IMG/VR virus record: IMGVR_UViG_3300035670_000751
Span: 1-34,939 of that record
DNA: 34,939 nucleotides
DNA from: a virus
Strand: one strand, 5' to 3'
The position numbers were made by a program, and so were the translations under genes. Shown here one piece after another: positions 21,541 to 34,939 of the stretch (positions within the stretch are counted from its first letter, which is position 1; each line of letters opens with the position of its first letter). Below the pieces are notes generated by a model, which was not told the origin of the DNA, made no database searches, and saw nothing but the letters and a program-made list of their open reading frames with translations.

Positions 21541-22544
21541 TGACAAAAGCAGTTTGCACAGACCAAGAGTTTATTGAGTTATGGAAACAAGTCCAGTCAC
21601 CATCAGGAATGAGCAAGGCTCTTGGAGTTGATGTTCGTGCCATTATGAGGCGAAGAAATTATCTAGAGGCTAAATACAATATTGCTTTAGTAACTGATAA
21701 TCCTTTAAAGCAAACCATTACTTTTGATAGAAATGTCGCAAAGCAAAAACTAGCTGAGAAGCTAGAAGAAACTAGGCACTCTGTCCGCAGAGGCACAGTT
21801 ATTGAGAATGGCAAAGTAGTAGTGTTTTCTGATGCTCACTTCTATCCTAATGATTACAGCACAGCCTTTAGAGCATTGCTGACATTCATTAAAGCCCACA
21901 AGCCAGAAGTCATTATTAACAATGGTGATGCTTTTGATGGTGCATCTATCAGCCGACATCCTAGAATTGGCTGGGACTCAAAGCCTTCTGTAATCGAAGA
22001 ACTCAAGGCAGTTCAAGACCATTTATCTGCTATCGAAGAAGCCTCAGTCCACAAGTCTAATCTTATCTGGACTCTAGGTAACCATGATGCTCGATTCGAG
22101 AACTTCCTAGCAGCTCAAGCTCCGCAGTATGAAGGAGTCCAAGGGTTTACCCTTAAAGACCATTTTCCACTATGGCAACCTTGTTGGTCATTCTGGATTA
22201 ATGAAGATACTGTGATTAAACACAGATGGAAAGGTGGTCGCTATGCAGGTTCAAACAATACAACCTTTGCAGGAACTTCTATTGTCACAGGTCATACTCA
22301 CCAGTTAAAAGTAGAGCCATTCACAGACTACAAAGGAACTCGCTATGGTGTGCAGACAGGATGCCTAGCTAACCCAATGGGTGACCAGTTCTCTGACTAT
22401 ACCGAGGACAACCCTAAAGACTGGAGAAGCGGATTCGCAGTTTTAACCTTTGTAGATGGCAAGTTGCTACCACCTGAGTTAGTGCAAGTCTGGAATGAAG
22501 ATAAAGGTGAGGTTACTTTCCGAGGAAAGATTTGGACTGTCTAA
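21540..22544 (+). CDS. Calcineurin-like metallophosphoesterase with N-terminal HTH-like region
   Basis: 334 residues. All the core motifs of the family are visible: D98-x-H100 (SDAH), G129-D130 with D133 (NNGDAFD), G180-NHD183 (LGNHDAR), H228 and G251-HTH254 (TGHTHQ). Residues ~8-45 (FIELWKQVQSPSGMSKALGV then RAIMRRRNYLEAKYNI) look like a helix-turn-helix that could bind DNA. Enzymes of this kind hydrolyse phosphodiesters or phosphomonoesters with two metals. As the final late gene, convergent with the early leftward operon and overlapping it by four bases, its substrate is unknown. Host or phage nucleic acid processing is plausible. Confidence 0.85.
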   Translation: MTKAVCTDQEFIELWKQVQSPSGMSKALGVDVRAIMRRRNYLEAKYNIALVTDNPLKQTITFDRNVAKQKLAEKLEETRHSVRRGTVIENGKVVVFSDAHFYPNDYSTAFRALLTFIKAHKPEVIINNGDAFDGASISRHPRIGWDSKPSVIEELKAVQDHLSAIEEASVHKSNLIWTLGNHDARFENFLAAQAPQYEGVQGFTLKDHFPLWQPCWSFWINEDTVIKHRWKGGRYAGSNNTTFAGTSIVTGHTHQLKVEPFTDYKGTRYGVQTGCLANPMGDQFSDYTEDNPKDWRSGFAVLTFVDGKLLPPELVQVWNEDKGEVTFRGKIWTV

Positions 22545-22747
22545 GGGAAAACCCTAACAAGACCTACCAAATAAATAATAACTGCTACAAGCTCCACCAA
22601 GAGCAAAGCATTGTCTCTGTATAGGTAGCCTTGGACTGTCCACAGAAAACTGCCTACAAGCCCAAATAAGAGGTTTAAAGGGTATATATTGATAGAAGTC
22701 AGGGCTATACCTATCAAACACAGTATAGTTCCTGACCATCTAATCAT
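22541..22747 (-). CDS. Small membrane protein, last gene of the leftward operon
   Basis: 68 residues with two to three membrane helices: SGTILCLIGIALTSINIYPL, NLLFGLVGSFLWTVQGYLY and ALLLVELVAVIIYLVGLV. The arrangement with NIYPLN and WTVQGY is common among small phage-encoded membrane proteins, superficially like PnuC or SWEET half-transporters. Function is unknown. Its ATG overlaps the upstream stop as ATGA, and its stop overlaps the convergent phosphoesterase stop. Confidence 0.72.
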   Translation of the reverse strand: MIRWSGTILCLIGIALTSINIYPLNLLFGLVGSFLWTVQGYLYRDNALLLVELVAVIIYLVGLVRVFP

Positions 22748-22845
22748 TTTTGGTTAGCCAAATACTCAGCCATTGTTTTGCGGATAGCTTCTCTGATTAC
22801 TGCTAGTTCATCTTCTGAGAGGGTAAAGTCTTTTTCTAGTGTCAT
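22744..22845 (-). CDS. 33-residue helical protein (hand-called)
   Basis: Reads MTLEKDFTLSEDELAVIREA then IRKTMAEYLANQK, a small acidic helical protein. Both ends are ATGA overlaps with neighbours, the strongest support that it is translated. TLSEDELAVIREAI resembles the ELSDDEIRKVI and ELSDEEIRQIY segments of the larger proteins upstream in the same operon, so it may be a reduced member of that family. Function unknown. Confidence 0.7.
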   Translation of the reverse strand: MTLEKDFTLSEDELAVIREAIRKTMAEYLANQK

Positions 22846-23093
22846 TTCTTTTTAGCCTTTTTAACTGGTTCTTTAATTTGTCGGTAGATCATTAATAAAT
22901 TGTGAACTTTGTCATCCAATTTGGACTCTATATCGTTAAGAATATCTGAGGCAGCCCACAATGCTCCAGAGTCATCACCTAAAGCTCTTTCTGCGCAGAT
23001 GGCAATTATAGACTGACAACTATTTACTTTACAGCTCAACTGCTCAATTTCATTGACCTGATTCCAAAAATCTTTTGCTAGTTCTTCATTCAT
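22842..23093 (-). CDS. Small helical protein of unknown function
   Basis: 83 residues, helical, with three Cys in its first half and a strongly basic tail (IKEPVKKAKKK). The middle (IIAICAERALGDDSGALWAA, SDILNDIESKLDDKV) resembles small proteins of host-interaction regions in proteobacterial phages. No catalytic motif was seen. It is linked by ATGA at both ends. Confidence 0.7.
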   Translation of the reverse strand: MNEELAKDFWNQVNEIEQLSCKVNSCQSIIAICAERALGDDSGALWAASDILNDIESKLDDKVHNLLMIYRQIKEPVKKAKKK

Positions 23094-23239
23094 TTTTCAC
23101 TCGCTTTCTTTAGTAATTCAAGGGTATGTTCATATCCATTTTCAAATGCAACCTTAGATAGACAATACAAACCACCAATAAAATTAAATGTAAGCATTAT
23201 TGGTAAAAATAAAACCATTAAAAATAATCTTGCTTTCAT
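23090..23239 (-). CDS. 49-residue membrane protein with KKASEK tail (hand-called)
   Basis: Starts MKARLFLMVLFLPIMLTFNF then IGGLYCLSKVAFENGYEH and ends TLELLKKASEK. The first ~25 residues form one membrane helix or an uncleaved signal. The C-terminal KKASEK matches the endings of the next two genes upstream. ATGA overlaps at both ends support translation. Function unknown. Confidence 0.7.
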   Translation of the reverse strand: MKARLFLMVLFLPIMLTFNFIGGLYCLSKVAFENGYEHTLELLKKASEK

Positions 23240-23482
23240 TTCTCACTCGCTTTCTCTAATACTGCTTTAGCAATTTTTAATCTAATTTCTTCTTCTGTTC
23301 CAACCCACCAAGTTCCATCAATTACTTTTCTTATTTCATCATCACTTAACTCTCTCAGTTCGTTTCGCTCTCTGAGAATTCGCTCAATCTTCTGAAAGCA
23401 ATACTCATCCCTAGGTATTGATGCGATTTCTTCAGCGTTTAATCCATCCCATGTTTTCATTTCTCACTCGCTTTCTTTAGTA
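23097..23482. repeat. Three-copy short repeat at gene junctions (KASEK-coding)
   Basis: The sequence TCACTCGCTTTCT occurs at 23097, 23243 and 23464, each time extending with small changes into TTAGTA or CTAATA. On the coding (minus) strand it encodes the Lys-Ala-Ser-Glu end of three consecutive genes and supplies GCGAGTGAG(A)AA directly before the next ATG. It therefore covers a stop, a start and a Shine-Dalgarno-like stretch in one unit. Confidence 0.8.
23236..23460 (-). CDS. Small acidic protein with ELSDDEI and KASEK motifs
   Basis: 74 residues. The N-terminus WDGLNAEEIASIPRDEYCFQ leads to ELSDDEIRKVIDGTWWVGTE and a final IRLKIAKAVLEKASEK. The D/E-E-I ... A-x-A-x-L-x-K-A-S-E layout is common in small proteins of Burkholderiales phages, where it occurs in multiple copies. 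It is a paralogue of the next gene upstream. ATGA overlaps at both ends. Function unknown. Confidence 0.75.
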   Translation of the reverse strand: MKTWDGLNAEEIASIPRDEYCFQKIERILRERNELRELSDDEIRKVIDGTWWVGTEEEIRLKIAKAVLEKASEK

Positions 23483-23669
23483 TTGCTCTAGCAAATCCAA
23501 AATAAGATTGTTGATGTGTATAAGGTGATTCCATTGCTTCAATGTATATCTGTCTTATTTCCTCATCACTTAACTCTCTTGGTGCGGTGTAGAGTGCAAC
23601 AATATCGTTTGGATTATCTTCTCTATATGCTTCTCTGTTTTCTTTGATATTCCATGCAACAGGTTTCAT
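23457..23669 (-). CDS. Small protein with ELSDEEI and KASEK motifs
   Basis: 70 residues. It starts MKPVAWNIKENREAYREDNP and continues to VALYTAPRELSDEEIRQIYI and FGFARAILKKASEK. The opening MKPVAW, the central LYTAPRELSDEEI and the closing FARAILKKASE are a recurrent phage protein pattern. It shares its last third with the downstream paralogue. ATGA overlaps at both ends. Function unknown. Confidence 0.78.
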   Translation of the reverse strand: MKPVAWNIKENREAYREDNPNDIVALYTAPRELSDEEIRQIYIEAMESPYTHQQSYFGFARAILKKASEK

Positions 23670-23812
23670 TTTTCAAATAACTCCCTTAATAAATGTTCTG
23701 CCATTATTACTGTCTCTCTGTGTTGTTTTTTTACAACATATCCACCATTAGGTAGCCTTGCTTGCAAAAGTTCATACAGTCTATCTGCCAAATCTACTGG
23801 ATCAATAATCAT
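23666..23812 (-). CDS. 48-residue helical protein (hand-called)
   Basis: Reads MIIDPVDLADRLYELLQARL then PNGGYVVKKQHRETVIMAEH and LLRELFEK. A compact helix-turn-helix-like composition with no Cys. Its ending resembles the family of the next two genes, but without the KASEK core. ATGA overlaps at both ends. Function unknown. Confidence 0.72.
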   Translation of the reverse strand: MIIDPVDLADRLYELLQARLPNGGYVVKKQHRETVIMAEHLLRELFEK

Positions 23813-23988
23813 GGGATAAGCCTCTTGCAACTGTATGGAGTCATTCCTATTCTGAACATTCCCATAACTGAGCAGTCTTGAGCAATTGTGTAGTAAGCAC
23901 CAAGCCCACCAACACTATTGCCAATAACAAAAATAATAACCATTCCGACCAGACTCTTTCTGATCTTCTCAATCCATTCATTAATCAT
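23809..23988 (-). CDS. 59-residue single-membrane-helix protein (hand-called)
   Basis: Starts MINEWIEKIRKSLVGMVIIF; the membrane helix runs from about residue 13 to 33. It is followed by YTIAQDCSVMGMFRIGMTPY then SCKRLIP. Two Cys lie in the C-terminal part (DC..., SCK), as in many small phage membrane proteins that end in a Cys-containing periplasmic tail. The ATG follows the stop of the winged-helix gene with no spacer, and its stop overlaps the next start as ATGA. Confidence 0.75.
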   Translation of the reverse strand: MINEWIEKIRKSLVGMVIIFVIGNSVGGLGAYYTIAQDCSVMGMFRIGMTPYSCKRLIP

Positions 23989-24363
23989 TTAAACCTCTGC
24001 TATGGGGTTAAAAAGCCAATGAGCTGCATAGTCAGGTCTTGGTGTGAACTTTGGTATTCTTCTCAATGGTTCTCTTGTCTTGAGCTTGTATCGTCTGTTG
24101 TATTCTTGCTGGCTGAATGGCAATGGCTTCTCTGCATCTGGTAGATTGCCAGTCTTGTAGTAAACAGTATAAGCACCTGCTTCACTCCTAGCATAGTGAT
24201 CGATATAGACCTGCTTCTTGAAGCGCATCTCTGTCAAATATTTAGAGAATGACTTTAGGCTCAGATTAACTGAGTCTGCCATCTGGTGACAGTTCATTGG
24301 TTCTTTTTGCATCCTGAGTAATAAATACTGGATTCGCTTTTGTTTCATTTCTCTCTGACTCAT
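23989..24363 (-). CDS. Winged helix-turn-helix DNA-binding protein
   Basis: 124 residues. Residues ~5-60 form a winged-HTH-like fold: KQKRIQYLLLRMQKEPMNCH, QMADSVNLSLKSFSKYLTEM (recognition helix around SLKSFSKYLTEM) and RFKKQVYIDHYARSEAG as the wing. The basic, Pro-containing C-terminal half (YKLKTREPLRRIPKFTPRPD) resembles a large set of proteobacterial phage proteins. It is the only clear transcription-factor candidate among the early genes and could bind the repeat at 27081-27101, but no link is shown. AAAGG lies six bases before the ATG. Confidence 0.75.
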   Translation of the reverse strand: MSQREMKQKRIQYLLLRMQKEPMNCHQMADSVNLSLKSFSKYLTEMRFKKQVYIDHYARSEAGAYTVYYKTGNLPDAEKPLPFSQQEYNRRYKLKTREPLRRIPKFTPRPDYAAHWLFNPIAEV

Positions 24364-24374
24364 ATAAACCTTTC

Positions 24375-24431
24375 AAAACTGGGCTACTCGCTGCGTCTGG
24401 TCGGCTAAGTAGTCTCAACCCAAATACCCAG
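24375..24431 (-). terminator. Possible structured element or terminator after the small exported-protein gene
   Basis: In the 91-base gap between two leftward genes, CTGGG (24379-24383) pairs with CCCAG (24427-24431), and CTACT (24384-24388) pairs with AGTAG (24408-24412). On the minus strand the 3' arm AGTAGCCCAG is followed by TTTTG. The two stems are separated by unpaired sequence, so it is a weak terminator candidate. Confidence 0.3.
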
Positions 24432-24454
24432 CATCCGCTTTTGCCCATTGTTAG

Positions 24455-24607
24455 TTAGAAGCAGTTAGTGCTGCAGTTACCACCATAACAACAGGTAGTG
24501 CATATAACCATTCTGCCATTTGAAGTTGTGACTGTGTGTGTAGAGCAATTAGCATAGACAACTGTCGCTGTCATTGCCAACAAAACACCTGCAATAATCT
24601 TTTTCAT
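24455..24607 (-). CDS. 50-residue exported Cys-rich protein (hand-called)
   Basis: A signal peptide (MKKIIAGVLLAMTATVVYA, cleavage before N20) precedes a 31-residue mature peptide with six Cys, including CTTCCYGGNCSTNC. AAGGAG eight bases before the ATG is an ideal ribosome site, so it is very probably expressed. Small exported proteins with the pattern VTTxxGR.xVCTTCC occur in many proteobacterial phages. The mature peptide is probably disulfide-bonded or metal-binding in the periplasm. Function unknown. Confidence 0.82.
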   Translation of the reverse strand: MKKIIAGVLLAMTATVVYANCSTHTVTTSNGRMVICTTCCYGGNCSTNCF

Positions 24608-24616
24608 AATAACTCC

Positions 24617-24853
24617 TTAGAATGGGACATCATCAGCTAGTGGAGCTGCTGTAGGGTTCTGACCTACTTCTCGCTTCTCAATATCTGCAAAGTAGATCCA
24701 TCCATCAAAAGGCACAGGCAAAGATTCAATCTTTAGCATCTCACCTTTACCAGTTTCCAATAAAACACCTACATTGACATAGCGAGTTTTTTCTTCACCT
24801 TGCTTGTTTGTGTAAGTACCTGCTTTAGCTTTTAGTTGTTTCTTGACTGCCAT
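24617..24853 (-). CDS. Small SSB-like protein with acidic C-terminal tail
   Basis: 78 residues. The first part (KKQLKAKAGTYTNKQGEEKT, RYVNVGVLLETGKGEML) is beta-rich with spaced basic and aromatic residues, like a reduced OB fold. The last residues PLADDVPF match the acidic DDxPF tip through which bacterial SSB recruits partners. Genes of this type sit next to annealing proteins and exonucleases in many phages. It would coat single-stranded DNA made by the YqaJ nuclease, whose gene overlaps it by 29 bases. AAAGG lies eight bases before the ATG. Confidence 0.7.
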   Translation of the reverse strand: MAVKKQLKAKAGTYTNKQGEEKTRYVNVGVLLETGKGEMLKIESLPVPFDGWIYFADIEKREVGQNPTAAPLADDVPF

Positions 24854-25454
24854 CTTTTAAACCTTTCAATTTATTTACTGTTTCATTTACTTCATCTAAA
24901 AAAACTACTACTTCTTCTTCGAGCTTTGCAATATATTCATCATCTCGATTTACTCGGACAACAAACAACTGCAAATCCTCTGGAAGCCTTGGATCAAAAG
25001 ACACAAAATCACACCATTGGCGGTTCATCACAGCCATCTGAGTTTGCATCTGAGGAATATACTTTGTAGGTGCTTTACCACTCAATAGAGTAGAAAGATG
25101 AGTTTTAGAGTTTGGGCATTTTATTTCAATAAGCCCTTCTTCTTCAACCATACCATCAGGGCTGCAACCGAAATTAGCAATGGTAGGATGGTCAATAAAA
25201 CCTGTTTCATCCACCAAGACATTTCTATATGCTTCATAAGCCATCCTTGCTTGTGGTTCTGTTTCAGTTCCCCATTGCATAGCTTCATTCTGGTAGAACT
25301 CCTGTTGCTTGCCAGTAAGTCTTTCGAGAACTAAGTCTGTCAAGTAATCTGCTCTAGTGGCTGAGTCCTTCTTAGCCAAGACTGCTGATACTTTACTAGC
25401 AGTTACTTTGCCTAATCTGGCTGCGAACCATTCTTCACTTCTTTGTTCCATCAT
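24825..25454 (-). CDS. YqaJ-type viral recombinase exonuclease (lambda Exo-like)
   Basis: 209 residues. Motifs in order: QRSEEWFAARLGKVTASK (the R-xxW-xxxR-xGxxTAS start typical of YqaJ), WGTETEPQARMAY, the nuclease core CSPDGM with Asp100, and IEIKCP with Glu110 and Lys112. This is the PD-(D/E)xK set of lambda-type exonucleases. The enzyme degrades the 5' strand of double-stranded ends and passes the 3' tail to the annealing protein encoded upstream. The start ATG 25454 overlaps the preceding stop (ATGATG); 25451 is an equally readable start. Confidence 0.92.
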   Translation of the reverse strand: MMEQRSEEWFAARLGKVTASKVSAVLAKKDSATRADYLTDLVLERLTGKQQEFYQNEAMQWGTETEPQARMAYEAYRNVLVDETGFIDHPTIANFGCSPDGMVEEEGLIEIKCPNSKTHLSTLLSGKAPTKYIPQMQTQMAVMNRQWCDFVSFDPRLPEDLQLFVVRVNRDDEYIAKLEEEVVVFLDEVNETVNKLKGLKDGSQETTKS

Positions 25455-25537
25455 CTATCTCCTAACCAAAGGATTAGCCCTACAAAGGCTAACCCTGCCA
25501 AAAAACCTAATAAAAGGACAAGAATTATAGTAATCAT
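25451..25537 (-). CDS. 28-residue membrane microprotein (hand-called)
   Basis: A single membrane helix with almost nothing else: MITIILVLLLGFLAGLAFVG then LILWLGDR. Both ends overlap neighbours (ATGA upstream, ATGATG downstream), and TTAGGAGATAG inside its 3' end is the ribosome site for the exonuclease. It may therefore serve as a translated leader as much as a protein. Confidence 0.68.
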   Translation of the reverse strand: MITIILVLLLGFLAGLAFVGLILWLGDR

Positions 25538-25716
25538 TTTACTTCAGACATCTCTTGAAGAACAAGGGATAAATCGTCTGCATACTTACTACAGTTTTTT
25601 GAAGCCTTGATTGCGTTAGACCAGTCACCTGCTAGACAGTAGTGGTGCAATACCTTTACTTCTGCCATTAGGTCAATCCAAATACCTGAGTAGTCTTTTG
25701 TTTCATCCATCTTCAT
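25534..25716 (-). CDS. Small protein of unknown function
   Basis: 60 residues from ATG 25716; an in-frame ATG 15 bases upstream has no ribosome site, while 25716 has GGAG nine bases away and an ATGA overlap. The core DYSGIWIDLMAEVKVLHHYC followed by LAGDWSNAIKASKNCSKYAD is helical with two Cys and resembles a recurrent small family in early regions of proteobacterial phages. Function unknown. Confidence 0.7.
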   Translation of the reverse strand: MKMDETKDYSGIWIDLMAEVKVLHHYCLAGDWSNAIKASKNCSKYADDLSLVLQEMSEVK

Positions 25717-25874
25717 TTCTCGTTTCTCCATGCTAAGTGCTTATAAGTTTGAAATTTCTCTTGGAATCTTTTATCTTCGCTAGGTGGTGTCCAGCCTAGT
25801 TTTCTGAGTGTTTCAGCAACATTGGTCTTAGCTGCTGGGACATACTGGAAATTAATATTATCAATTAGTTTCAT
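25713..25874 (-). CDS. 53-residue basic protein (hand-called)
   Basis: Reads MKLIDNINFQYVPAAKTNVA then ETLRKLGWTPPSED and KRFQEKFQTYKHLAWRNEK. The middle (TNVAETLRKLGWTPPSED) resembles short phage proteins with a helix followed by GW-P-P. It is basic and soluble. ATGA overlaps at both ends; its end encodes GGAG used by the next gene. Function unknown. Confidence 0.7.
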   Translation of the reverse strand: MKLIDNINFQYVPAAKTNVAETLRKLGWTPPSEDKRFQEKFQTYKHLAWRNEK

Positions 25875-26062
25875 CTTTTCCCCAAATCAAATTCAATAAT
25901 GTCGTTGCTTGCAATGAACTTATTATCCCTTGCATAGTAATTAACTTTTTCTGCAAGTCTTTCGTGAAGTTCTCCTAAGTGATTAGCAGCAAATTCATTT
26001 TTAGTTTCAAATGTTGCTATATCAAAAGCAAATCTAACTCTTATTTTATTTACTCTGCTCAT
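25871..26062 (-). CDS. Small protein of unknown function
   Basis: 63 residues with a strand-helix-strand look: NKIRVRFAFDIATFETKNEF, AANHLGELHERLAEKVNYYA, RDNKFIASNDIIEFDLGKR. No motif was recognised. It lies directly after the annealing protein with ATGA overlaps on both sides, so it may belong to the recombination set. Confidence 0.7.
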   Translation of the reverse strand: MSRVNKIRVRFAFDIATFETKNEFAANHLGELHERLAEKVNYYARDNKFIASNDIIEFDLGKR

Positions 26063-26589
26063 GCTAACTGTGCCTTTCTATCTTCTTTAGCCTTGTTGAT
26101 TCTTACTAAAGCTGCTTTGTCTTTGCTTGCAACCTTGTAGCCATGAGCAAAGTTCTTCTTTAGTTCTTCCATATCTTTTGACAAGATAATCATTTCTTCT
26201 AGCTCTGTGACATCTACAGGCTCTGCATCTTCCTGTGGCAAATCCTCACCAGCATAGATATACAAGCCGATACCATGCAATGCGATAGCCTTGGCTAGGC
26301 ATCTCTGCATAGCTGTATTAACTGCAAAAGCATCTGGGTTAGGAATGGCTTTGTTGCGGTAGTCCATCACAGGTAACTGTGCAGTCATAGACTTGCCAAA
26401 AGCATTGACTGTGCAAAACACCATCACAGTCTCACCAAACAATACTGGCTGACCATAAGACCAAGTAGCCATAGGATCTTGCTGCAACAACTGGTCACAA
26501 GCCCAAGCCCATGACAAATAGCTAAGACCATTCTTCTTTTCAATCTTGCTTGAGACATCAATCTTTCTTAATTCTGCATATTTACTCAT
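26059..26589 (-). CDS. Single-strand annealing protein, DUF1071 (Sak/Rad52-like)
   Basis: 176 residues. Diagnostic segments: GLSYLSWAWACDQLLQQDP, the strand pair VMVFCTVNAFGKSMTAQLPV, then MDYRNKAIPNPDAFAVNTAM followed by QRCLAKAIALHGIGLYIYAG. These are the DUF1071 family motifs, part of the Rad52-like group of annealing proteins. The C-terminal part is acidic, then a basic helix. It should bind single-stranded DNA and pair homologous strands, acting with the YqaJ exonuclease and SSB-like protein encoded downstream. TAGGAG nine bases before the ATG is a strong ribosome site. Confidence 0.92.
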   Translation of the reverse strand: MSKYAELRKIDVSSKIEKKNGLSYLSWAWACDQLLQQDPMATWSYGQPVLFGETVMVFCTVNAFGKSMTAQLPVMDYRNKAIPNPDAFAVNTAMQRCLAKAIALHGIGLYIYAGEDLPQEDAEPVDVTELEEMIILSKDMEELKKNFAHGYKVASKDKAALVRINKAKEDRKAQLA

Positions 26590-26693
26590 TTATTTCTCCT
26601 AAAAAACTTATTAACAAAACTGCGCCAACAAAAATATAGAGCTGTGGACTTACACAATCCTGACATTCTTAGTCTGCGGTATTTGGTTATCAT
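26586..26693 (-). CDS. 35-residue basic microprotein (hand-called)
   Basis: Reads MITKYRRLRMSGLCKSTALY then FCWRSFVNKFFRRNK, very basic and aromatic. The main support is exact ATGA overlap at both ends, matching all other junctions in this operon. Another frame of the same bases reads as a membrane helix (LYIFVGAVLLISFLGE) but has no start codon, so a frameshift or sequence error cannot be ruled out. Its end carries the ribosome site of the annealing protein. Confidence 0.45.
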   Translation of the reverse strand: MITKYRRLRMSGLCKSTALYFCWRSFVNKFFRRNK

Positions 26694-26941
26694 CTCTCAT
26701 CCCATTGAGTTCTTAAGTCCATCTCATAGTTAGCCCTGTCATTGGCATAACCTTCCATGACTTCTACTGTGTGATTCCAGACCCATCTACCCAAAGTCTC
26801 AAAGTCTCTGTTCTCTAGCAACTCTTGGAGTCGCTCACCTTGTTCTTTGCTGGTCTGTTCCATTGCTTCTAGGAAGTTATTAACCTTGCAAGGGTTATAT
26901 TCATCAGCCATAAAGTCATCAACTAGTTCTTCAAAAGTCAT
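26690..26941 (-). CDS. Small acidic protein
   Basis: 83 residues, strongly acidic and helical (FEELVDDFMADEYNPCKVNN, FLEAMEQTSKEQGERLQELL, RDFETLGRWVWNHTVEVM). No domain was recognised. Acidic small early proteins of phages often act as DNA mimics or inhibitors of host proteins, but nothing specific supports that here. AAGGAG nine bases before the ATG marks it as well expressed. Confidence 0.75.
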   Translation of the reverse strand: MTFEELVDDFMADEYNPCKVNNFLEAMEQTSKEQGERLQELLENRDFETLGRWVWNHTVEVMEGYANDRANYEMDLRTQWDER

Positions 26942-26952
26942 TATTCTTCTCC

Positions 26953-27033
26953 TTAAATAAACAAAGCAAACATTGAACCAATAACTGCACCTAAAACTGC
27001 TGCACCCAAAATATCTAACTTAGTAACTTTCAT
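26953..27033 (-). CDS. 26-residue membrane microprotein, first leftward gene (hand-called)
   Basis: Reads MKVTKLDILGAAVLGAVIGS then MFALFI: a single Gly/Ala-rich membrane helix after a short basic N-terminus. AAGGAG lies six bases before the ATG, an ideal ribosome site, and its stop TAA runs into the AAGGAG of the next gene. It is the promoter-proximal gene of the leftward operon. It may be a membrane-acting early peptide. Confidence 0.68.
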   Translation of the reverse strand: MKVTKLDILGAAVLGAVIGSMFALFI

Positions 27034-27409: not shown

Positions 27410-27498
27410 TGTTTTGACTGGCTAGGTTCGCTACCGAAAAGTGGACTCCTTCACCCACCTGCCAGTTCCTTATAAGTGAAGGCTTTTGAAGGAAAGTT
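27410..27498 (+). promoter_or_regulatory. Structured leader upstream of the replication initiator
   Basis: Two complementary pairs interleave: ACTGGC (27417-27422) with GCCAGT (27461-27466), and CCTTCAC (27448-27454) with GTGAAGG (27476-27482). Both can form together only as a pseudoknot; otherwise they are alternatives in one RNA. The second stem is followed by CTTTT and by the ribosome site GAAGGAAAG. A terminator, an autoregulatory site or an RNA switch are possible; no known class was recognised. Confidence 0.45.
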
Positions 27499-33843: not shown

Positions 33844-34939
33844 ATGGATAACAATACTCTCAAAGGCATATTAGAAGCTGAGATTGATAACTCTCTTGGC
33901 TTCATTGAAACTGAGACTACTGATGAGCGCAGAAAAGCTCTCCAGTATTACAACAGAGAACCTTATGGCAATGAAGTCGAAGGTCGCAGCTCTATTGTTA
34001 CTGGTGAAGTAGCCGAGGTAGTAGATGGTGCATTGCCACAATTATTGAGAGTATTTACTCAGTCAGACGAGATGGTTCGCTTTGAGCCTAAAGGTGTGGG
34101 TGACGAGGAGAAGGCTAAACAAGCTACAGAGTATGTCAATTGGGTGTTAAACCATGACAACTCAGGTGTCATCCTGTTCCATAACTGGTTCAAGGATGCC
34201 TTGTTGCAGAAGAATGGTATCGTCAAGGTCTACTGGGATGAGCAGACAGATGTAACCAAAGAGAAGTATAAAGACCTGAATGAAGAAGAATTGACCATGC
34301 TTTTGGCTGATCCAGAGGTAGAAGTGGTCAGTCAGGATATGGAAGAAGTAGCTCCTGCTAGTGTAGACCCAATGACAGGTATGCCAATTCCACCTGTGTT
34401 TTCATACAGCGTTAAGCTAAAGCGCACCAAGAAGAATGGCAAGGTTATTGTTGAGAATGTCCCACCAGAGGAGTTCTTGATCTCTAAGAAAGCCAGAACT
34501 ATTGCTGATGCTCCTTTTGTAGCCCACAGAAAGCTAACCACTCGAAGCGAGTTGGTGGCTATGGGCTTTGACAAGAAGAAGGTAGATGCCTTGCCTTCAT
34601 ACTCAGACCTAACTTACTCTGAGGAAAGAATTGCTCGATTTGACCGAGGCGAGATGCCAGATGAGACAGCAAGCCTAGACCACACAATGCAAGATGTGGA
34701 AGTTATGGAGTGCTATCTCAAGGTCGATATGGATGGAGATGGTATTGCAGAACTCCGCAAGATTGTCTATGCAGGTCAAGAGATCCTAGACAATGAAGAA
34801 GTGGACTTTGTACCATTCTGCTCAATCTGCCCTATTCCTATGCCACACAAGTTCTTTGGTCATAGCTTGGCAGACAGAGCTACAGACTTACAGTTGATTA
34901 AGTCTACAGTTACAAGACAGATCCTTGACAATATGTATA
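33844..34939 (+). CDS. Portal protein, N-terminal part (continues at base 1 of the window)
   Basis: Open to the window edge; the remaining codons are at 1-1065 after the 127-base overlap. The start MDNNTLKGILEAEIDNSLGF followed by RRKALQYYNREPYGNEVEGR, SSIVTGEVAEVVDGALPQLL and VFTQSDEMVRFEPKGVGDEE is the P22/SU10-type portal N-terminus. The region VNWVLNHDNSGVILFHNWFK then DALLQKNGIVKVYWDE is also diagnostic. ATG 33844 directly follows the TerL stop. With its other half it totals about 677 codons. Confidence 0.92.
   Translation, partial: MDNNTLKGILEAEIDNSLGFIETETTDERRKALQYYNREPYGNEVEGRSSIVTGEVAEVVDGALPQLLRVFTQSDEMVRFEPKGVGDEEKAKQATEYVNWVLNHDNSGVILFHNWFKDALLQKNGIVKVYWDEQTDVTKEKYKDLNEEELTMLLADPEVEVVSQDMEEVAPASVDPMTGMPIPPVFSYSVKLKRTKKNGKVIVENVPPEEFLISKKARTIADAPFVAHRKLTTRSELVAMGFDKKKVDALPSYSDLTYSEERIARFDRGEMPDETASLDHTMQDVEVMECYLKVDMDGDGIAELRKIVYAGQEILDNEEVDFVPFCSICPIPMPHKFFGHSLADRATDLQLIKSTVTRQILDNMY
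34813..34939. repeat. Terminal direct repeat, right copy
   Basis: Identical to bases 1-127. Position 34813 is the first base of a codon in the portal frame, as is base 1, so the two halves join without a frameshift. Confidence 0.95.

Follow-up and report, generated by a model that had tools for sequence, protein, structure and literature searches.

The nin region of phage lambda is a row of small, mostly accessory genes with short stop-start overlaps. It has been called 'a chain of interlinked genes' (Kroger and Hobom 1982, as cited in PMC7166090), and the leftward operon of virus record IMGVR_UViG_3300035670_000751 is also a row of small stop-start-linked genes. The whole record of 34,939 bases is called the window here. 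The operon lies on its minus strand, with a rightward block opposite. Three consecutive junctions of the operon share a repeated DNA sequence, linker K, which covers the end of one gene, its stop codon and the start of the next. A shared joint of this kind was not found described for nin in the literature searched, and PHROGs and Pfam scans of the operon proteins revealed none of the nin families (ninB, rap and others). More generally, no description of a stop-start joint common to unrelated phage genes was found in the open literature searched.

Cluster K mycobacteriophages carry a 13-bp element named SAS (GGGATAGGAGCCC), which includes AGGAG, is placed 3-7 bp ahead of the start codon, in most cases downstream of a gap of >50 bp, and belongs to one phage cluster (PMC3203893). 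Both SAS and the linker are short repeats in one orientation at the starts of non-structural genes of different families. In contrast to SAS, the linker overlaps both the stop and the start codon, is in part coding sequence and is spread over several terminase lineages. It fell outside the SAS definition, since its consensus runs up to the ATG and contains no AGGAG.

T4-type phages have mobile regulatory cassettes with a promoter and a stem-loop, named PeSL (Arbiol 2010, Comeau 2014, via PMC4503421). As summarised in PMC4503421, these repeated gene-boundary sequences were proposed to mediate the shuffling of small genes. A similar role was found here, in that a common boundary sequence marks small-gene exchange in the breakpoint profiles of linker K and a second linker, Q. 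Compared with PeSL as summarised there, the linker differs in joining neighbours by a stop-start overlap and in having no detectable stem-loop or sigma-70-like promoter, and it does not fit the PeSL definition. Linkers K and Q folded no better than their shuffled versions (z about +0.7), and an RNA hairpin in the linker was rejected. Sigma-70-like sites were below the shuffle expectation in the region and absent from the three linkers (minus strand), in a search that did not cover phage-specific promoters.

The 4-nucleotide (nt) overlap ATGA couples translation by termination-reinitiation, as experiments in E. coli and Haloferax have shown (PMC6728339). The window operon has the same co-directed, conserved stop-start overlap, whereas a sequence common to unrelated genes is absent from that description. 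The Sak of the window belongs to the phage Rad52-like recombinases. This superfamily tolerates sequence divergence between its substrates (PMC3945230), and relaxed recombination is a plausible route for short or imperfect homology, although it was described for longer homologies and not for 22-nt joints.

Linkers K and Q at gene junctions

The first-pass annotation had given the ATGA overlaps at 23457, 23236 and 23090, but not the repeated DNA that they have in common. At each of these junctions we found linker K, CTAAAGAAAGCGAGTGAGAA followed by ATGA, and a 43-nt repeat (D1) occurred at all three. The linker core, TAAAGAAAGCGAGTGAGAA and then ATGA, encodes the C-terminal codons KKASEK, the stop codon and the start of the next gene. 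The variable part of the operon that holds the three copies is listed below; dN/dS is the ratio of nonsynonymous to synonymous substitution.

23666..23812, minus strand: g14, 48 residues, left border of the variable cassette site (dN/dS 0.34; locus maps)
23457..23669, minus strand: g15, 70 residues, cassette gene with linker K tail (linker contexts, locus maps)
23556..23576, minus strand: internal block GAGTTAAGTGATGAGGAAATA (ELSDEEI) in g15, second breakpoint (repeat D2; swap test)
23457..23479, minus strand: linker K copy 1 (TAAAGAAAGCGAGTGAGAAATGA), g15 tail, stop and g16 start (repeat D1, 18-mer, breakpoint profile)
23236..23460, minus strand: g16, 74 residues, cassette gene with linker K tail (linker contexts, locus maps)
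23332..23352, minus strand: internal block GAGTTAAGTGATGATGAAATA (ELSDDEI) in g16 (repeat D2; swap test)
23236..23258, minus strand: linker K copy 2, g16 tail, stop and g17 start (repeat D1, breakpoint profile)
23090..23239, minus strand: g17, 49 residues, membrane microprotein with linker K tail (98% identical copy in relative L143)
23090..23112, minus strand: linker K copy 3 (GTGAAAAATGA variant), g17 tail, stop and g18 start (repeat D1, breakpoint profile)
22842..23093, minus strand: g18, 83 residues, right border of the variable cassette site (dN/dS 0.21)

The cassette content varied within the window's own group. Between g14 and g18 the locus maps, drawn with a gene caller that favours 4-nt and 1-nt overlaps, showed no gene (L013), one (L009), two (L143), three (the window) or more. 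The interval between the Sak gene (SAK) and g06 held nothing, g05 or other genes in relatives, and the ATGA was usually kept.

At least 120 viral stretches contained an exact copy of the linker K 18-mer (AAAGCGAGTGAGAAATGA). As controls, sequences of similar length from two further window junctions were matched 2 and 5 times. In 257 Gb of bacterial and archaeal genomes the 18-mer had 10 matches, which is about chance level, and no host could be named by this route. The 185 distinct linker K contexts comprised upstream proteins of 66 clusters and downstream proteins of 113 clusters, and one gene could occur beside several different neighbours. To avoid selection by the exact 18-mer, an independent scan was made with the upstream 16-mer AATACTAAAGAAAGCG alone; 98 of its 131 contexts ran on into the linker K core. 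Conservation fell from 2 bits to about 0.2 right after the ATGA and decayed upstream from -19 to -40, and synonymous positions upstream of the selected core were also conserved.

Within each of 27 carrier records all linkers lay on one strand, mostly in clusters, and the reversed pattern gave zero matches. The carriers were viral contigs of 29-202 kb, and linker K was not found in isolate phages. The linkers cross phage lineages, because the terminases of their carriers ranged from 99% identical to undetectably similar.

The identity around the linkers broke off sharply on both sides. When only the upstream gene was the same (71 pairs), identity was 93-100% through the ATGA and about 27-30% beyond it. 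When only the downstream gene was the same (29 pairs), identity was 98-100% over the 15 nt preceding the start, dropped to 74% at -20 to -15 and was about 30% beyond -35. Since identity falls off at the linker on either side, this one-flank pattern is a footprint of exchange, with crossovers inside the linker.

A k-mer survey of the ATGA junctions in the fetched loci revealed linker Q (CTAAGAAAGGCACAAGAGAA followed by ATGA), which encodes a KAQEK tail. It occurred in 24 unrelated contexts, though the loci had not been picked for it, and linker K in 103; k-mers at -60..-50 of the same junction sample reached at most 2. A pattern scan of viral stretches gave at least 120 Q matches. The breakpoint profile of Q was the same as that of K, and the two interchanged in 60 pairs with a common upstream gene and 9 with a common downstream gene. 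The GenBank circular metagenome phage MW202753 carries two Q linkers. They flank open reading frames (ORFs) of roughly 52 and 146 residues that are unannotated (L413:3539-4218), in line with the first-pass expectation that such small genes escape annotation.

A second kind of breakpoint lay within the genes. The 21-nt internal block GAGTTAAGTGATGAGGAAATA separated 21 pairs with only the head in common and 111 with only the body in common. In L143, g17 and g18 came after a gene in which the g16 head was joined, behind RELS, to a different body.

By eye, the upstream half of linker K led straight into the start of a Sak-like gene at L234:1801 and L235:110 (minus strand), and a core gene can therefore also follow a linker-type end. 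A possible g06 relative in L157 had a KASEK tail at its end, again by eye.

Probable recombination joints and competing explanations

We consider it probable that the short shared ends are recombination joints, at which promoterless microgenes are swapped while the stop-start coupling is kept. In the variable part from g14 to g18, each joint would be the repeated linker of about 22 nt, made up of a gene 3' end, the stop and the next start. Recombination between such short identical ends would replace, insert or delete whole promoterless genes, and the exchange unit would extend from the ATG of one gene to the ATG of the next. Because the joint contains the stop-start overlap, an incoming gene would already be linked. 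The ELSDEEI block inside many cassette genes would allow the exchange of heads and bodies too. The exchange itself may proceed by homologous annealing at the linker, mediated by Sak, Erf or host enzymes. Translation is presumably coupled at the linker sites, and the cassette products may be early accessory proteins.

Several observations weigh against this explanation. The linker K contexts were gathered by the exact 18-mer, which inflates the identity within it. Many insertions between SAK and g06 retained the ATGA without a K or Q linker, and other insertion routes therefore exist. Among nine Sak-related near-complete records (L012, L019, L022, L026, L042, L053, L059, L064 and L072), only L012 had a linker, and a tenth, L020, had one with one mismatch. 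Being missing from most close relatives, the linkers are therefore not needed for the operon, and they are a patchy, acquired feature in the window's group. Moreover, Sak was found in 0, Erf in 8 and YqaJ in 1 of the 27 carrier records, in a search that did not include RecT-type or Gp2.5-type proteins. Sak and YqaJ were rejected as recombinases common to the carriers, and therefore no single recombinase explains all of them.

The best of the competing explanations, which we regard as unlikely, is that the linker is an SAS-like translation-initiation element, kept for ribosome binding and not a recombination joint. It would account for the position of the linker, always directly on a start codon, for the use of another frame at about ten sites and for those sites that have no upstream gene reading into the linker. 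Before g16, g17 and g18, linker K pairs with the anti-Shine-Dalgarno sequence at about -6.9 kcal/mol, close to AGGAG, but this strength was unexceptional compared with shuffled (29%) or synonymous (18%) versions, and linker Q, with the same behaviour, pairs at only -3.5 kcal/mol. With K pairing moderately and Q poorly, ribosome binding is an unlikely driver, and its strength was rejected as the main reason for linker conservation. In addition, the similarity extends about 40 nt upstream, past the reach of a ribosome site, and the one-flank identity shows physical exchange.

It is still less probable that the tails all belong to a single protein family with a conserved C-terminal peptide (FARAILKKASEK / FARAILRKAQEK) and that the DNA is alike through recent kinship. 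Although K and Q encode similar peptides and an LSDEEI-like motif occurs in 86 of the 185 carriers, about half, dozens of carriers are unrelated proteins. At about ten sites an upstream ORF of 57-161 codons stops inside the linker in another frame (ending in ESE), and other sites lack an upstream ORF. The use in another frame already contradicts a conserved peptide. Because of all these sites, and because synonymous positions are conserved, the linker acts at the DNA or RNA level and not as a peptide.

A metagenome assembly artefact at a short repeat is a very improbable source of the mix-and-match of neighbours. In its favour, almost every carrier is a metagenome contig, and together with its upstream extension the linker reaches up to about 40 nt. 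However, 16 junctions, of which eight were recombinant with respect to another junction, recurred in separately assembled metagenomes (some of which may stem from one site), and this recurrence speaks against an artefact. The linker core is about 22 nt, and the two Q linkers of MW202753 lie in a circular GenBank record. The idea of an ordinary overlapping gene chain with ends shared by chance or low complexity can be dismissed almost entirely: 4-nt overlaps are indeed frequent, both in prokaryotes (PMC6728339, PMC10666635) and in lambda nin, but the reversed pattern gave zero matches in the 27 records, the control junctions 2 and 5 matches, and the k-mer control a maximum of 2.

The recombination-joint explanation has a broader form, which we put forward only tentatively: freshwater phages of several lineages might draw on a common pool of accessory microgenes whose ends are standardised and selected for exchangeability. 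The two interchangeable linkers and the internal block (each about 21-22 nt) might then reassort heads, bodies and whole genes by recombination that keeps the frame and the stop-start coupling. It is a largely unanswered question how small accessory genes are acquired and lost by phages with their operons unbroken, and a shared stop-start joint offers a concrete, testable answer for these phages. The linkers may also serve as a search tag, pinpointing hundreds of small genes of uncultivated freshwater phages that annotation can miss. Several of the linker-tagged small genes are membrane or secreted.

Small genes of the leftward operon

The portal gene is split over both ends of the record (28-1065 and 33844-34938), and therefore the window is probably a complete, circularly permuted (or circular) genome. 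Genes for the terminase, portal, major head protein, tail fibre and endolysin are among those in the rightward block. The closest head proteins belong to freshwater-spring metagenome phages (Manatee Spring, 71%), and the closest among named phages to Methylophilales phage Venkman (53%). Amid about 18 small genes, the leftward operon has those for a Sak annealing protein and a YqaJ exonuclease. A known function was assigned to these two alone; g20 matches DUF6552, a Pfam family of unknown function, and with this exception the cassette proteins gave only weak Pfam matches under the cut-offs. The Sak and YqaJ genes and the opposite orientation suggest that the operon is early. That its products act on the host, as the first-pass annotation proposed, is possible, not established. 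The genes outside the variable part are listed below.

26953..27033, minus strand: g01, 26 residues, hydrophobic microprotein (AAGGAG start; 10/10 intact, dN/dS 0.51)
26690..26941, minus strand: g02, 83 residues (13/16 intact, dN/dS 0.38)
26586..26693, minus strand: g03, 35 residues, basic (16/16 intact, every one ending ATGA, dN/dS 0.33)
26059..26589, minus strand: SAK, Sak single-strand annealing protein (Pfam SSAP_Sak PF06378, 4e-41, 140.5 bits against a cut-off of 22.3; dN/dS 0.12)
25871..26062, minus strand: g05, 63 residues, one among alternative SAK-g06 inserts (in L007; diverged in L015)
25713..25874, minus strand: g06, 53 residues (15 intact homologs, all with ATGA end, dN/dS 0.17)
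25534..25716, minus strand: g07, 60 residues (18/18 intact, dN/dS 0.32)
25451..25537, minus strand: g08, 28 residues, one hydrophobic segment (16/16 intact, dN/dS 0.38)
24825..25454, minus strand: EXO, YqaJ-type exonuclease (Pfam YqaJ PF09588, 3.6e-33, 115.4 bits against a cut-off of 22; dN/dS 0.15)
24617..24853, minus strand: g10, 78 residues, ADDVPF end (15/15 intact, dN/dS 0.14)
24455..24607, minus strand: g11, 50 residues, Cys-rich, signal-like N-terminus (8/8 intact, dN/dS 0.37)
23989..24363, minus strand: g12, 124 residues, winged-helix-like by eye (dN/dS 0.14)
23809..23988, minus strand: g13, 59 residues, membrane microprotein (8/9 intact, all ATGA, dN/dS 0.35)
22744..22845, minus strand: g19, 33 residues (6/8 intact, dN/dS 0.17)
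22541..22747, minus strand: g20, 68 residues, hydrophobic, DUF6552 (Pfam 6e-13; dN/dS 0.35)

The first-pass annotation had described the operon as a chain of microgenes coupled by ATGA overlaps. All 14 junctions that it listed proved to be exact ATGA overlaps on the minus strand, including the ATGATG at 25454-25449. The eight gene sizes that it gave were also exact (26, 28, 33, 35, 48, 49, 50 and 59 residues for g01, g08, g19, g03, g14, g17, g11 and g13). Overlaps of 4 nt joined 14 of the 19 adjacent operon pairs but only 3 of the 31 pairs of the rightward block (Fisher p=5.5e-6). As an architecture, such a chain is ordinary in phages and bacteria. Its ribosome sites had been placed at six points only, and this list was incomplete. 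Further sites were AGGAG before the EXO start (25454/25451), GAGGT before 23988, GGAG before 25716 and those of g16-g18. The membrane segments of g01, g08, g13, g17 and g20 and the signal peptide of g11 were evident, though this assignment was made by eye only.

The conservation of the small frames was examined in 80 relatives of the Sak gene, in which dN/dS was pooled over homologous frames. Start, stop and length were kept nearly always, and all genes represented by 7 or more distinct sequences had dN/dS values of 0.12-0.51. Estimates for g05, g15 and g16 came from 1-3 pairs only, and g17 had no homolog in this set. The ATGA was retained at 84 of 108 homologous ends of g02, g03, g06, g07, g08, g13, g14, g18 and g19, a homolog-based count that is free of the gene caller's preference. 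Related phages thus kept the reading frames, the opposite of a pattern in which bases are kept and frames lost, and the first-pass expectation of conserved small frames held. Because the frames stay intact in relatives at such dN/dS values, the small frames are genes under purifying selection.

The products of g10 and its relatives end in DVPF or DIPF, which resembles the C-terminal tip of single-stranded DNA-binding protein (SSB). No family matched g10 well, and its ADDVPF end may be likened to the SSB tip.

A structured RNA candidate in the operon gap

The only large gap of the operon, 24455-24363, is occupied by a structured RNA candidate, which was likewise absent from the first-pass annotation.

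24381..24446, minus strand: structured RNA candidate between g11 and g12 (covariation, 21 model matches)

Its pattern is GGGC[AG]AAAGCGGATGC, a variable stem and GCAGCGAGTAGCCC, just upstream of the g12 start. Among the 21 matches, 8 of 14 pairs had changes on both sides and 97.3% of cells were paired; nine of these sequences had served to build the model to which the alignment was fitted, so that the counts lean towards structure. None of 500 shuffles was as good in the covariation measures, and slid controls were far lower. The first RNAalifold prediction, made on a MAFFT alignment, already contained three covarying pairs. No Rfam family matched the candidate at E<=0.5. Besides relatives, other phages also had matches, among them GenBank MW202710. 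The RNA was usually separated from the preceding stop codon by about 9 nt and from the following start, mostly that of g12, by 9-20 nt. As a first guess, it might be a cis-acting leader of g12.

Outside the operon, the Rfam int-alpA RNA (RF02996, E 5.5e-7, above the gathering score) was found at 27415-27482 on the plus strand, between a Holliday-junction-resolvase-like gene and a replication gene.

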